This document shows, piece by piece, positions 53,450 to 63,451 of a stretch of 64,000 nt of DNA. Position numbers and translations under genes: made by a program. The stretch is from Acidobacteriota bacterium (GTDB taxonomy: Bacteria; Acidobacteriota; Blastocatellia; Pyrinomonadales; Pyrinomonadaceae). Under the pieces are notes generated by a model. It was not told the origin of the DNA and did not search any database. It saw only the letters and a program-made list of their open reading frames with translations. Location of the stretch: positions 62,001 through 126,000 of the forward strand of contig QHXN01000017.1 of the NCBI GenBank assembly GCA_003222975.1, written 5' to 3'. Each line of letters starts with the position of its first letter. Positions within the stretch are counted from its first letter, which is position 1.

Positions 53450-55336
53450 ATGTCTAAGAGAGTTATAGAAAGTTACCGGCGCAGGCTTGCGACCGAAGAG
53501 GGCTGGATATGGAAGCGCGGCGCGCGTCTGCGCGTGGCCCTGTGCTACCCGAACGTGTACGGCGTCGGGATGGCGAACCTCGGCTTCCAGTCGGTGTACG
53601 AGCTTTTCAACCGCATCCCCGACGTGTCGTGCGAGCGCGTCTTTTTGCCGGACGACGCCGAGGTGCGCGAGTACGAACGAGCGGGCACGCCTCTGCTGTC
53701 GCTCGAATCGCAGACGCCCGTGCGCGACTTCGACCTCGTCGCCTTCTCGATCTCCTTCGAGACGGACTTCCTCAACATGGCGCGCATGCTCCGGCTCGCG
53801 CGCGTGCCCGTCTGGGCGACAGACCGGACGCACCACGACCCACTCGTCTTGATGGGCGGCGCGGCCTCGTTCCTCAACCCCGAACCCATCGCGGAGTTCA
53901 CGGATGTCGTTGCCGTCGGCGAAGGCGAGATTCTCGTTCCCCGACTCGTTGACCTCCTGTTCGAGAACTCGGACGAGGGTGGGACGAAGGAAGACTTACT
54001 CTTAAAGCTCGCGCGGACGGGACGCGGTTTCTACGTGCCGTCGCTCTACGATGTGACGTACAACGAGGACGGCACGATCAAAGCTTACACGCCGAAGGCC
54101 GAGGGCGTGCCAGCGAGCGTCGGCAGGATAGTCGCGGCGGAGAACCCGAAGGAAGGGAGTCTCAGGCGCGCGATGCGTCGCGGCGACCGCGAAATCGTGG
54201 AGAAGTTGAAGGAGCCTGAAGTCTTCGCGCCGTCGTCAATCATCTGGGCACCCGAAGCCGAGATGGGCGAGCGCTTCCTCGTGGAGATTTCGCGCGGGTG
54301 CTCGCAGGGGTGTCGCTTCTGCTGGGCGGGCTTCAACTACTGGCCGCCGCGCGTCGTCCCCGCGCGCGACATACTCGCCAAAGCAGCCGAGTGGCGCGCG
54401 CGCACCGACAAGATCGGCCTCGTCTCCACAGCCGTCTGCGACCACCCTGAAATCAGCGAAATCCTCGGCGGCCTGCGAGAGATGGGCTATCGTATTTCCG
54501 TCTCGTCGCTCAGGCTCGACCAGATTGAGGATGAGCTTTTGGACGCGCTCGTCGAGTCGGGCGACCAGCAGATCGCGGTCGCGCCGGAGACCGGAAGCGA
54601 CCGCCTGCGCCGCGTCATCAACAAGAACCTGACGAACGACGAGATCGTCGGTATCTGCGGCGCGGTCTTCGACCGCGGCATGCTGACCGTCAAGCTCTAC
54701 ATGATGACAGGGCTGCCGACCGAGCGGGACGAAGACCTCGAAGCGATGGTCGAGCTGGTCACGCGCATCAAAGACCGCATGCTTGAAGCGGGGCGGAGGT
54801 TCGGGCGCGCGGGGAAGATCATCCCGGCCCTAAACGGCTTCGTGCCCAAGCCGAACACGCCGTTTCAGTGGGAGCCGATCTGCGAGGAGCGCGAGTTGAA
54901 GCGCCGCCTGAAGTGGCTCTCGAAGAACCTCTCGCGCATCCCGAACGTCGAGGTGAGAGTGATGTCGGCGCGTGTGGCGCACGAGCAGGCGCTCTTCTCT
55001 TCGGGCGACCGGAGAGTCGCGCGCGTCATCGAGGCGGCAACGCGACACCGCGGCGACCTCAACGCGGCGCTGCGCGAGACCGGCACCCGCCCAGAGTTCC
55101 ACACGAGCCGCGCCCGCCCTTACGAAGAAATTTTGCCGTGGGAGATCGTGGACTCAGGCATGGGGCGTGAGTTTTTAGAGAAGGAGCACGCGCGGGCGCA
55201 AGTCGCGCGCTCGACCGCACCCTGCCCGTCCGTTGACACCTGCACGCGCTGCGGCGTCTGCCCGACGACGTGGCTCGCCGCCGCGCCCGCAGGGCTGGTG
55301 CAGTTGCAGAGCAAAAGAGTGGCGGCGGCGGCCTGA
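53450..55336 (+). CDS. TIGR03960-family radical SAM protein
   Basis: A 628-residue radical SAM protein. The N-terminal 230 residues have a cobalamin-binding-type Rossmann region (LRVALCYPNVYGVGMANLGF). The [4Fe-4S] motif is ISRGCSQGCRFCWAGFNYWP (C284, C288, C291). PETGSDRLRRVINKNLT is the SAM-contacting region. The C-terminal PCPSVDTCTRCGVCPTTW could hold a further cluster. The family is uncharacterised. In other genomes it is often followed by a TIGR03936/DUF2344 gene for tRNA or ribosome modification; that partner is absent here. Confidence 0.9.
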   Translation: MSKRVIESYRRRLATEEGWIWKRGARLRVALCYPNVYGVGMANLGFQSVYELFNRIPDVSCERVFLPDDAEVREYERAGTPLLSLESQTPVRDFDLVAFSISFETDFLNMARMLRLARVPVWATDRTHHDPLVLMGGAASFLNPEPIAEFTDVVAVGEGEILVPRLVDLLFENSDEGGTKEDLLLKLARTGRGFYVPSLYDVTYNEDGTIKAYTPKAEGVPASVGRIVAAENPKEGSLRRAMRRGDREIVEKLKEPEVFAPSSIIWAPEAEMGERFLVEISRGCSQGCRFCWAGFNYWPPRVVPARDILAKAAEWRARTDKIGLVSTAVCDHPEISEILGGLREMGYRISVSSLRLDQIEDELLDALVESGDQQIAVAPETGSDRLRRVINKNLTNDEIVGICGAVFDRGMLTVKLYMMTGLPTERDEDLEAMVELVTRIKDRMLEAGRRFGRAGKIIPALNGFVPKPNTPFQWEPICEERELKRRLKWLSKNLSRIPNVEVRVMSARVAHEQALFSSGDRRVARVIEAATRHRGDLNAALRETGTRPEFHTSRARPYEEILPWEIVDSGMGREFLEKEHARAQVARSTAPCPSVDTCTRCGVCPTTWLAAAPAGLVQLQSKRVAAAA

Positions 55337-55341
55337 AGGCC

Positions 55342-55427
55342 AAATGATGAATGCGGAATGATGAGTGATGAATGAGAAGCAACTTCTGCCTTCTCATTCA
55401 TCACTCATCATTCCGCATTCATCATTT
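55342..55427. repeat. Heptamer inverted repeat, GATGAAT/GCGGAAT family, perfect arms
   Basis: Arms of 38 nt that begin AAATGATGAATGCGGAATGA and are exact inverse complements with a 10-nt loop. The right end supplies the stop codon (TGA) of the leftward gene at 55422. Confidence 0.93.
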
Positions 55428-55829
55428 CGGATTGATGAAGCCGCTGCTGCGGGCCGTGTGGTCGAACTTGTAGTCGTAGGCGAATCCGGGCAGTTGGACT
55501 TCTTGCGTCCATTGGACGTGTGCGGCGATGCGACCTTCCTCGTTCTGCACGTTGACCTGCATGTTCGCCGGGAGGTTGTAGTCTTTCGCCGCGGAACGCA
55601 ACTGCGACGCAACCCACTCGTTGGTCTGCCCCGGCGGGTAGGCGGCCTTGTTCACCGTCTCCTGCATGTAGTCTTTAAAGAGGTAGGCGTTGTAGGCGAT
55701 GGGCACGTAGTGGTAAGCGGAGTAGCCGCCGAGCACGATGACGAGGACGATGATGATGAAGTTGAGGCGCGAGCCGCCCCGCTCGCCGCGCTTGCTAGGC
55801 GCGCGATGCTCACGCTGTGCGACAGTCAT
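55422..55829 (-). CDS. Membrane-anchored protein of unknown function
   Basis: A 135-residue protein. ATG 55829 gives MTVAQREHRAPSKRGERGGS, then one membrane helix (LNFIIIVLVIVLGGYSAYHY), then an extracytoplasmic domain (KDYMQETVNKAAYPPGQTNE; YNLPANMQVNVQNEEGRIAA). It begins 35 nt after aroB on the same strand. The C-terminal residues FINPK are followed by a TGA contributed by the inverted repeat at 55342-55427. No family recognised; ribosome site weak. Confidence 0.65.
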   Translation of the reverse strand: MTVAQREHRAPSKRGERGGSRLNFIIIVLVIVLGGYSAYHYVPIAYNAYLFKDYMQETVNKAAYPPGQTNEWVASQLRSAAKDYNLPANMQVNVQNEEGRIAAHVQWTQEVQLPGFAYDYKFDHTARSSGFINPK

Positions 55830-55864: not shown

Positions 55865-57094
55865 TCAACGAGCGCCCAGCGCCGCGCGGATTGACTCGCG
55901 GATGACGCGCGCCGGGACTTCCCTCCCGTCCACGACGCGCGCCCGACCGATGCGTTCCAAGAGAACCCAGCGGACGCTCCCGCCGACCGCCTTCTTGTCC
56001 GCGCGGAGCGCGCGGGCGACCATGCCGGCGTCGAGGTCGGAGGCCGCGGGCAAATGACCCGCGGCACGGACGGCCCCGCGCAAGGATTCTAGCTCCGAAC
56101 CGTCCAGCAGTCCTAGTCTTTTTGAAATCTCGGCGGCGGCAATCATCCCGTGGCCGACCGCCTCGCCGTGTCGGAAGCGGCGGTAGCCGGTCAGCGATTC
56201 GAGCGCGTGCCCGACCGTGTGGCCGAAGTTCAGCACACGGCGCGAGCGCGCGTCCGCGCGGGAGATGTCCTCGCGCTCGTCGCCCGCGACGATCTTCGCC
56301 TTGAACGCGCACTGCTCGGCGATGAGTTCCGCAAGCTCTTCATCACGGCCTTCGCCTCGGCCTTCGTCGCGCCCTCCGCCGCGAACGTCGGCGCGGCTTC
56401 CGTCGCGCCCCGTGCCGATTCTACACGCGACTTTCCGCCGCGACTCCTCTTCGAGAAATTTTCGTGTCCGCTCGAACAGCCTGCGGTCGCCGACCGCGCC
56501 CTGCTTGATCGCCTCGCACCAGCCGGCTGTCAGCTCGCGCGCGGGCAGAGTCCGCAGGGTCTCGGTGTCAACGACGACGGCGCGCGGCTGGTGGAACGCG
56601 CCGACGAGGTTCTTGCCCGCGCGCGTGTTGACCCCGGTCTTGCCGCCGACCGACGAATCAATCTGCGCGAGCAGCGTCGTCGGCACCTGCACGAACGCGA
56701 CGCCGCGCAGGTACAGCGCAGCCGCGAACCCCGCGAGGTCGCCCACCACCCCGCCGCCGAGCGCCGCGACGGCGTCCGCCCGCTCAAGCTCCGACTCGGA
56801 CAGGAATCGCAGACAACGCTCCGCCGTCCGCAGGGTCTTGAAGCGCTCGCCGTCGCTCATCAGCCAGTGCGAGACGCTGAAGCCCGCGCCGCGCAAAGAG
56901 GCGATTGCGCGCGCGCCGTAGAGGTCGAACACGCGCGGGTTCGAGACGAGCGCAACGCGGCGCGCTTCCGCCGGGAGGTTCGCGCGCGCGACTGCGCCGA
57001 GACCCGACAGCACGCCCGGCCCGACATCAATCGGGTAGCTCCTGCCCCCTTCGAGACGCACGGGGACGCGCCGCATTCGTCCGTCATCCGTCAT
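55865..57094 (-). CDS. aroB: 3-dehydroquinate synthase
   Basis: A 409-residue NAD- and zinc-dependent synthase of the shikimate pathway, converting DAHP to 3-dehydroquinate. ALGGGVVGDLAGFAAALYLR and VPTTLLAQIDSSVGGKTGVN carry the NAD- and substrate-binding residues. AGWCEAIKQGAV, LNFGHTVGHALE (zinc His) and RHGEAVGHGM (second zinc His) are intact. An Arg/Asp/Gly-rich insertion of about 30 residues near 225-255 (GRDGSRADVRGGGRDEGRG) is unusual. The start at ATG 57094 overlaps a small upstream frame (57084-57191). Confidence 0.93.
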   Translation of the reverse strand: MTDDGRMRRVPVRLEGGRSYPIDVGPGVLSGLGAVARANLPAEARRVALVSNPRVFDLYGARAIASLRGAGFSVSHWLMSDGERFKTLRTAERCLRFLSESELERADAVAALGGGVVGDLAGFAAALYLRGVAFVQVPTTLLAQIDSSVGGKTGVNTRAGKNLVGAFHQPRAVVVDTETLRTLPARELTAGWCEAIKQGAVGDRRLFERTRKFLEEESRRKVACRIGTGRDGSRADVRGGGRDEGRGEGRDEELAELIAEQCAFKAKIVAGDEREDISRADARSRRVLNFGHTVGHALESLTGYRRFRHGEAVGHGMIAAAEISKRLGLLDGSELESLRGAVRAAGHLPAASDLDAGMVARALRADKKAVGGSVRWVLLERIGRARVVDGREVPARVIRESIRAALGAR

Positions 57095-57191
57095 CACCGT
57101 CCTCAAACGCCGCCTTCAACACTTCGGTCAAGCGGCCTTCGGGAGACGCGCGCCGCGCAAGCCGCGCCAGTCCTCCGGCGGAGGGACGCAC
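57084..57191 (-). CDS. Possible 35-codon small gene overlapping the aroB start
   Basis: GTG 57191 to TGA 57084 encodes VRPSAGGLARLARRASPEGR followed by LTEVLKAAFEDGDDG. Its composition is coding-like and its stop overlaps the first codons of aroB, as in translational coupling. AAGGA lies only 2 nt before the GTG, which is too close, so initiation is uncertain. It could be a leader peptide, a remnant or chance. Confidence 0.3.
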   Translation of the reverse strand: MRPSAGGLARLARRASPEGRLTEVLKAAFEDGDDG

Positions 57192-57246: not shown

Positions 57247-57300
57247 TGTGCTGAATGCAGGTCGCGGGCGGGTCGGTGTGCTTCGTAGACTTCGGGGACA

Positions 57301-57343
57301 AAATAAGCGCGGGCGCGGCAAACTTGGGGAATGCCGCGCCCGC
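57301..57343 (-). terminator. Rho-independent terminator, end of the putative sRNA / glmM transcript
   Basis: A perfect 11-bp stem (GCGGGCGCGGC with its complement, 57309-57319 and 57333-57343), 13-nt loop, followed leftward by GCTTATTTTG. It ends transcripts that come from glmM or from the sigma54 promoter at 57429-57443. Confidence 0.75.
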
Positions 57344-57417
57344 TCTAATGTGTGGTCACTGTCCTCACCCCAGCAACCACTGAGACGGAGGATTCACCAA
57401 CCGTCTCTCTTGCCCCA
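57301..57417 (-). ncRNA. Candidate sigma54-dependent small RNA
   Basis: From the start site predicted by the sigma54 promoter (near 57417) to the terminator at 57301 there are about 117 nt. They fold into three successive hairpins: GAGACGG/CCGTCTC (57407-57401, 57388-57382), GTGGT/ACCAC (57380-57376, 57356-57352) and the terminator stem. No open frame longer than 10 codons is present. It lies between glmM and aroB. GlmY/GlmZ of enterobacteria are also sigma54-driven and act on amino-sugar synthesis, but no sequence relation is claimed. Confidence 0.45.
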
Positions 57418-57428
57418 CAATTTATATC

Positions 57429-57443
57429 GCAACGTCTGTGCCA
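57429..57443 (-). promoter_or_regulatory. Sigma54 (RpoN) promoter upstream of the putative sRNA
   Basis: Leftward TGGCAC-AGACG-TTGC, a full match to TGGCAC-N5-TTGC with correct GG-N10-GC spacing; both this and the promoter at 7678 continue with GATA. No gene starts before the terminator at 57301. Confidence 0.75.
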
Positions 57444-57587
57444 TGCGAGTACAAACAAAACGGCATTAAAAACCTACGCCTTTACCGGCTTTTTCGCGGG
57501 CCGGTCGAAAAGCCTGTGAGTAAAATGTGGGGTGAAGTGTAAGTCTTACATCAGCCGCCGCGTAAAATTTTCTCGACGCGGCGCATC
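57444..57587 (-). other. Upstream region of the sigma54 promoter with dyads
   Basis: Contains a GGCTTTTTCG/CGAAAAGCC dyad (57487-57514), the overlapping ACCGGC/GCCGGT (57484-57505) and a 13-bp palindrome TGTAAGTCTTACA (57538-57550). These lie about 70-135 nt upstream of the predicted start, where enhancer sites are expected. They differ from the dyads at 7763-7816. No gene between 57192 and 57587. Confidence 0.35.
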
Positions 57588-58997
<1,410 letters not shown>

Positions 58998-59012
58998 CGG
59001 GGCAATCATAAG

Positions 59013-59099
59013 AGTTCAAAGTTCAAGGTTCAAAGTTAAAAGTTAAAAGTTAAGAACACGGCTTTCGACTTTTAACTTTAAACTTGGAACTTGGAACTG
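59013..59099. repeat. Heptamer inverted repeat, GTTCAAA/GTTAAAA family
   Basis: Left arm is a series of 7-nt words GTTCAAA, GTTCAAG, GTTCAAA, GTTAAAA, GTTAAAA; right arm is a diverged inverse complement (TTTTAACTTTAAACTTGGAA). Occupies the cdaR-glmM gap. Confidence 0.88.
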
Positions 59100-60983: not shown

Positions 60984-61115
60984 AGATTTTTGATTTTAGA
61001 TTTTAGATTTTTGATTTGCGATTTGCGCGCGCGGGCGAAGGTCGGGTTGTGTCGCAACTTGGAACTCAAAGTCGAACTCCAAATCAAAAATCGCAAATCG
61101 GAAATCAAAAATTCT
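60984..61115. repeat. Heptamer inverted repeat, GATTTTT/GATTTTA/GATTTGC family
   Basis: Left arm (60984-61027) is a run of 7-nt words GATTTTT, GATTTTA, GATTTTA, GATTTTT, GATTTGC, GATTTGC. The right arm (61079-61115) is a diverged inverse complement. It fills the gap between the CDF transporter gene and cdaA. Confidence 0.9.
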
Positions 61116-63357: not shown

Positions 63358-63365
63358 AAGCAGTA

Positions 63366-63439
63366 GGCAGACGGCAGGAGCAGGAGGCAGGCAGAAAATG
63401 CTCTTGCCTTTTTGCTGCCTCCTGCTCCTGCCGTCTGCC
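63366..63439. repeat. Heptamer inverted repeat, GGCAGAC/GCAGGAG family, perfect arms
   Basis: GGCAGACGGCAGGAGCAGGA... (25 nt, 63366-63390) and its exact inverse complement (63415-63439) with a 24-nt loop. Lies between the M50 protease and mreB genes. A longer, diverged copy is at 35615-35800. Confidence 0.92.
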
Positions 63440-63451
63440 TCCCATCGTTTT

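Follow-up and report, generated by a model that had tools for sequence, protein, structure and literature searches.

A multicopy structured RNA family in Acidobacteriota with a predicted sigma54 promoter beside glmM

Described sigma54-dependent RNAs and the glmM-aroB locus

CrcZ and CrcY of Pseudomonas are sigma54-dependent RNAs, present in several copies, under the NtrC-type activator CbrB. The CbrB regulon has been described (PMC6296734), and sigma54-controlled sibling RNAs are already known from Qrr (PMC10162802, PMC8043402) and GlmY (PMC6075780). GlmY and GlmZ act on glmS together with RapZ. Acidobacteria are common in soils, and a 2022 survey counted four distinct annotated small RNAs in them (PMC9029176); in literature text searches of incomplete coverage, we did not find an RNA of the kind analyzed here described. 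What we add is a well-supported RNA family with its siblings, its promoter type, and a candidate activator.

The window, the whole 64,000-nucleotide stretch of DNA that was analyzed, comes from a 4.93-Mb genome that is 92% complete; among named organisms, its nearest relatives belong to Pyrinomonadaceae (Acidobacteriota). The family and class assignments of relatives are based on those that hold the 19-nt core of the RNA, TTGCTGGGGTGAGGACAGT. An earlier note, made from the sequence of the window, had proposed a sigma54-driven small RNA next to glmM. We found the promoter TGGCAC-AGACG-TTGC on the minus strand, as the note had it, with the predicted RNA start following from its position, and both of the hairpins and the strong terminator that it described lie within 118 nt ending at a T-tract (Table 1). 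The RNA has a predicted folding energy of -61.1 kcal/mol, compared to -40.6 +/- 3.6 for shuffled sequences (z -5.7). A simple terminator scan did not detect the terminator stem because the loop, at about 11 nt, is longer than the 8 nt that the scan allows. The note's view that the stretch holds no protein gene was borne out, since a short in-frame GTG open reading frame is interrupted by an A insertion in relatives, and a peptide product was rejected on this ground. A plasmid comparison gave no match. Elsewhere in the window, we observed long intergenic inverted repeats at 55322-55447, 59013-59098, 60986-61112, and 63365-63440; three of the four consist of short degenerate units, and two have sub-threshold Rfam matches to plant microRNA.

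Table 1. Features of the RNA locus in the window, and the candidate activator gene elsewhere in the same genome
Feature	Position	Strand	Remarks
Small RNA gene	57300..57418	-	predicted 5' end ~57418-57416; 3' end at T-tract, ~57300
Sigma54 -24/-12 element, TGGCACAGACGTTGC	57429..57443	-	fixed register in 37 sigma54-type copies
Hairpin 1 (HP1), GAGACGG ... CCGTCTC, loop UUGGUGAAUCCU	57382..57407	-	compensatory changes
Hairpin 2 (HP2), near-invariant loop GCUGGGGUGAGGACAGU	57352..57380	-	highest conservation within the family
Terminator hairpin, C-rich loop UUCCCCAAGU	57309..57343	-	GC-rich stem, 11 of 12 pairs doubly changed; then TTATTTT, T-tract 57306-57300
Proximal palindrome ATGTAAGACTTACAC, candidate enhancer-binding site	57537..57551	-	GTGTAANNNTTACAC-like site in most copies
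Distal half-conserved site GAGAAAATTTTACGC	57560..57574	-	23 bp from proximal palindrome
glmM (phosphoglucosamine mutase), upstream neighbor	57588..59009	-	NCBIfam TIGR01455 over cut-off
aroB (3-dehydroquinate synthase), downstream neighbor	55865..57106	-	TIGR01357 over cut-off; ~194 nt from RNA terminator
Candidate activator gene	G000:C28:7100-8482 = L272:1066-2451		REC, sigma54 AAA, and Fis domains

Spread, fold, and neighbors of the RNA family

A 151-nt query gave matches (E <= 1) in 54 of 60 genomes, with strong matches in most genomes of the same family and frequently several per genome. A covariance model trained on 29 copies scored the glmM-side copy at 141.5 bits and returned 5 matches in the window's genome and as many as 10 in relatives. 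One of the 5 is weak and corresponds to the opposite strand of the same copy, and some weak matches in relatives are of that kind too or are due to chance. This search in Blastocatellia, which the earlier note had suggested, extended the family beyond Pyrinomonadaceae: most genera of Pyrinomonadaceae carry the glmM-adjacent copy, families elsewhere in the class have the RNA at other sites, and many genomes hold extra copies at unrelated loci. Matches at phylum level outside the class (L063, L064, L067, and L068) had motif scores of 10 to 11 out of 17 and were taken as chance.

Of the cells in alignment A1, 99.1% pair, and double changes occur in 16 of the 31 pairs, a level of covariation reached by none of 500 shuffles, and sliding the structure along the alignment lowered pairing to 39 to 57%. 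Aligned alone, the extra copies with sigma70-type promoters fold in the same way, and double changes affect 26 of their 32 pairs. The HP2 loop is nearly invariant across the window's family and keeps its core, UGAGGA, in other families; hairpin 2 is the best-conserved portion of the RNA in both sigma54-type and sigma70-type copies. An Rfam search with the RNA sequence, at E limits of 1 and 5, gave no family match, and identity with a known Rfam family was rejected. Judged by these sequence comparisons, the 118-nt stretch is a member of a conserved family of structured RNAs that is absent from Rfam and multicopy in soil Acidobacteriota. We also observed divergent RNAs that retain the GGGGUGAGGAC loop in another context (L060 in G006, L077 in G045, and L073 and L078 in G031), and these are possible further members.

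A gap of 481 nt separates glmM from aroB, and the RNA lies within it, on the strand of both genes and with the terminator at its end, as would be expected of a cis-acting element, whether a 3'-UTR or terminator module belonging to the glmM operon or a leader that controls aroB. Across the family, however, members occur at many unrelated loci and in either orientation relative to their neighbors, the RNA has promoter elements of its own, and sigma54-type copies elsewhere lack glmM upstream. These differing neighbors argue against a cis role, which we regard as very unlikely. In Pyrinomonadaceae, glmM is upstream at nearly all sigma54-type loci and aroB is downstream at several, which is mostly not the case in other families, where sigma54-type copies adjoin mutS, an XTP-diphosphatase-like, a peptidase-like, or an mtgA-like gene, or aroB (names other than aroB were assigned by eye from the sequences).

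The link to glmM and amino-sugar synthesis drawn in the earlier note found no support other than position. Placement beside glmM is limited to Pyrinomonadaceae, the paralogues are scattered, and, in the target prediction that the note had envisaged, complementarity between the RNA loops and 38 distinct glmM start regions was not above that of shuffles (mean z of +0.3 to +0.5). As a target of the RNA's leader, glmM ranked 3 of 41 in the window, yet the pairing is not conserved over relatives, and glmM was rejected as a target.

Promoter types, upstream palindromes, and a candidate activator

The 4.9-Mb genome has 13 instances of the exact promoter pattern, compared to 5 of a reversed control, so the match alone is unremarkable and its significance derives from conservation. 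GGC at -24 to -22 and TGC at -13 to -11 are present in 37 of 37 sigma54-type copies, and the register of the element relative to an invariant GGGGCA leader is the same in all of them. Because these copies were found via GG-N10-GC, the invariance of GG and GC is partly by construction; the C at -22, the T at -13, the near-invariance of A at -21 and of T at -14, and the spacing to the leader are not built in by this selection. Sigma54-type copies were found on the glmM side in 24 Pyrinomonadaceae genomes, and also in ten genomes of other families (L054-L059, L062, L071, L221, L224, L225, L338, and L339), with slight departures from the consensus promoter in L054, L224, and L062. One cultured host, Pyrinomonas methylaliphatogenes K22 (L006/L173), has a copy of the RNA, close to position 416,500 of NZ_CBXV010000002.1.

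Many glmM-side copies also retain a sigma70-like promoter, TTGCAT-N18-TATATT, that overlaps the sigma54 element and from which basal transcription could proceed. Alternatively, the RNA could owe most of its transcription to a housekeeping promoter of the usual sigma70 kind, in which case the -24/-12 element would be a relic or a coincidence, and the siblings and one group of Pyrinomonadaceae do have TTGCNN-N17/18-TATAnT at an equal distance from hairpin 1. We consider this improbable given the invariant GGC and TGC of the sigma54-type copies, the palindromes upstream of them, and the loss of TATATT, which has decayed in the same-genus copies L003, L004, and L008 and has no TATA-like counterpart in copies from other families. 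Both the promoter and the stems are conserved in relatives, a check that the note had set for itself, and together with the conserved upstream site this gives good support to the note's sigma54-driven small RNA, whose transcription we infer.

In sigma54-type genomes, the extra copies that we read have TTGCNN-N17/18-TATAnT-like promoters and no -24/-12 element. The sibling copies that we noted, among them three paralogues read in the window's own genome (L069, L075, and L079; the others are L070, L076, and L080-L098), show this promoter form and adjoin unrelated genes, for example, an RluA-like pseudouridine synthase or a glycosyltransferase-like gene. Their HP2 loop is nearly identical to that of sigma54-type copies, and the terminator loop is C-rich in both. 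Ten Pyrinomonadaceae genomes (G008, G015, G018, G019, G021, G023, G025, G026, G029, and G034) have sigma70-like copies that mostly adjoin glmM and/or aroB and lack the -24/-12 element. Since the sigma54 form is present in other families, the sigma70 form at the glmM-aroB locus would best be read as its replacement. This would be a natural case in which an orthologous RNA gene exchanged a sigma54 promoter for a sigma70 one, in genomes from which the matching activator is absent.

The upstream dyads that the earlier note placed at enhancer distance were also found (Table 1). A GTGTAAGnCTTACAC-type proximal palindrome lies 97 to 134 bp before the -24 GG in most sigma54-type copies and is weak or degenerate in L022, L023, and L055; the tandem arrangement is GTGaAAnnTTTACgC, 8 nt, and GTGTAAGnCTTACAC. 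The 23-bp palindrome spacing is preserved in most Pyrinomonadaceae copies and the distance to the promoter is variable. Helical phasing of the site was rejected, as the distances group near 108-110 and 121-126 without a sharp period. Across the 60 genomes, the palindrome at 84 to 114 nt before TGGCN7TTGC gave 22 matches, compared to 6 for the reversed pattern; these are mostly at this RNA, so the upstream site seems near-dedicated to it. In G048, a palindrome and -24/-12 element stand before a small secreted-looking open reading frame instead of the RNA (L223, G048:C130:44457-44576), a possible second regulon member in a genome with no activator match.

We found rpoN in 58 of 60 genomes, and its near-universal presence makes it uninformative on promoter type. 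The window's genome encodes 27 EBPs, two of which had a distribution matching the sigma54-type RNA in a screen of seven genomes (two loci without a protein and a few listed places were left out). The second candidate, L269, was rejected when its distribution failed over 60 genomes. The first, a REC-AAA-Fis protein, has an orthologue in 32 of the 34 genomes with sigma54-type RNA and in none of the 22 in which the copy is of the sigma70 type or the RNA is absent. This profile covers the 56 genomes with settled promoter type or RNA absence (G006, G053, G055, and G059 were left out), and the orthologues, one of which is at G024:C1:271428-272798, have 63 to 88% identity, two of them being truncated. 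The co-distribution has a Fisher p of 1e-13, which ignores shared ancestry, and wide profiling was limited to two activators; because the match is a correlation on the phylogeny, few independent events stand behind this value. G048 has the RNA and promoter with no activator match, and G022 has neither the activator nor rpoN. In about ten genomes the activator gene is 10 to 25 kb from rpoN, so the missing rpoN makes an assembly gap likely in G022. From this co-distribution, the REC-AAA-Fis protein is probably the activator of the sigma54-type RNA. In the window's own genome, its gene is directly downstream of a uroporphyrinogen-III-synthase-like gene.

Mode of action and comparison with known systems

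Hfq is encoded in 39 of 40 genomes and CsrA in 3 of 40, the window's genome having none. With Hfq near universal and CsrA nearly absent, a trans-acting RNA of the Hfq type is a likelier reading than a sponge for CsrA, and a sponge of the CsrB/RsmZ type was rejected. This distribution, together with the copies between unrelated genes, makes a trans-acting, probably Hfq-assisted RNA the best reading. The Hfq proteins of sigma70-type genomes are shorter (77 to 88 amino acids) and lower scoring than those of most sigma54-type genomes, a difference that may reflect phylogeny only. A decoy that titrates an RNA-binding protein, of the CsrA/Rsm type or, as for GlmY, the RapZ type, would fit the GGA in the exposed HP2 loop, the conserved loops and variable stems typical of decoys, and the multiple copies. 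However, CsrA is absent from 37 of the 40 genomes, including the window's, and each RNA usually has just one or two GGA motifs, so we think a decoy unlikely; in a variant of this explanation, the RNA may titrate some protein other than CsrA.

We therefore favor with some confidence a free-standing, trans-acting RNA of about 118 nt that would depend on sigma54 and an NtrC-type activator, end at its own terminator, and act, probably with Hfq, on mRNA targets elsewhere. The two palindromes, some 110 and 133 bp upstream, would be bound by a response regulator of the NtrC type, which is probably the REC-AAA-Fis protein; sigma54-RNA polymerase would then transcribe the RNA as far as its terminator; and the RNA, probably with Hfq, would contact distant mRNAs via its exposed conserved segments, namely HP2 GGGGUGAGGA, the C-rich terminator loop, and the GGGGCAA leader. 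Because the sibling copies have the same loops under sigma70-like promoters, one signal would add to an RNA pool whose other members are constitutive or under different control, an arrangement formally akin to the multicopy Qrr RNAs of vibrios. A kissing interaction of the C-rich terminator loop with either the HP2 loop or the leader was rejected because inspection of the alignments by eye showed it to be inconsistent across families. On a wider scale, we lean slightly toward a Blastocatellia-wide regulon of up to about ten siblings per genome with shared near-invariant loops, whose founder would be controlled by sigma54 and a near-dedicated activator of the NtrC type; one lineage would have lost the activator and swapped in a sigma70 promoter at the same locus. 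The cultured host P. methylaliphatogenes K22 makes each step testable.

Like CrcZ and CrcY, the RNA is of the sigma54 type, has an NtrC-type activator (here a candidate), and occurs in several copies; unlike them, it is shorter, is unrelated in sequence, and shows no CA-rich Hfq-titration repeats. The analogy with GlmY and GlmZ (sigma54, QseF/GlrR) drawn in the earlier note holds for the promoter class, with candidate NtrC-type activator sites upstream and an amino-sugar gene nearby (PMC6075780, PMC7073468), and fails for the RNA itself, which has no covariance or Rfam match to them and no complementarity to glmM starts above that of shuffles, its glmM adjacency being confined to one family. 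The RNA differs from Qrr1-5 of Vibrio (sigma54 with LuxO/SypG) in phylum, loops, and upstream site, has no covariance match to Qrr, and has siblings under sigma70-like promoters, but it shares with Qrr1-5 conserved hairpins followed by a terminator, a promoter of the sigma54 type, an activator of the NtrC type (here a candidate), occurrence as several siblings, and the presence of Hfq (PMC10162802, PMC8043402).
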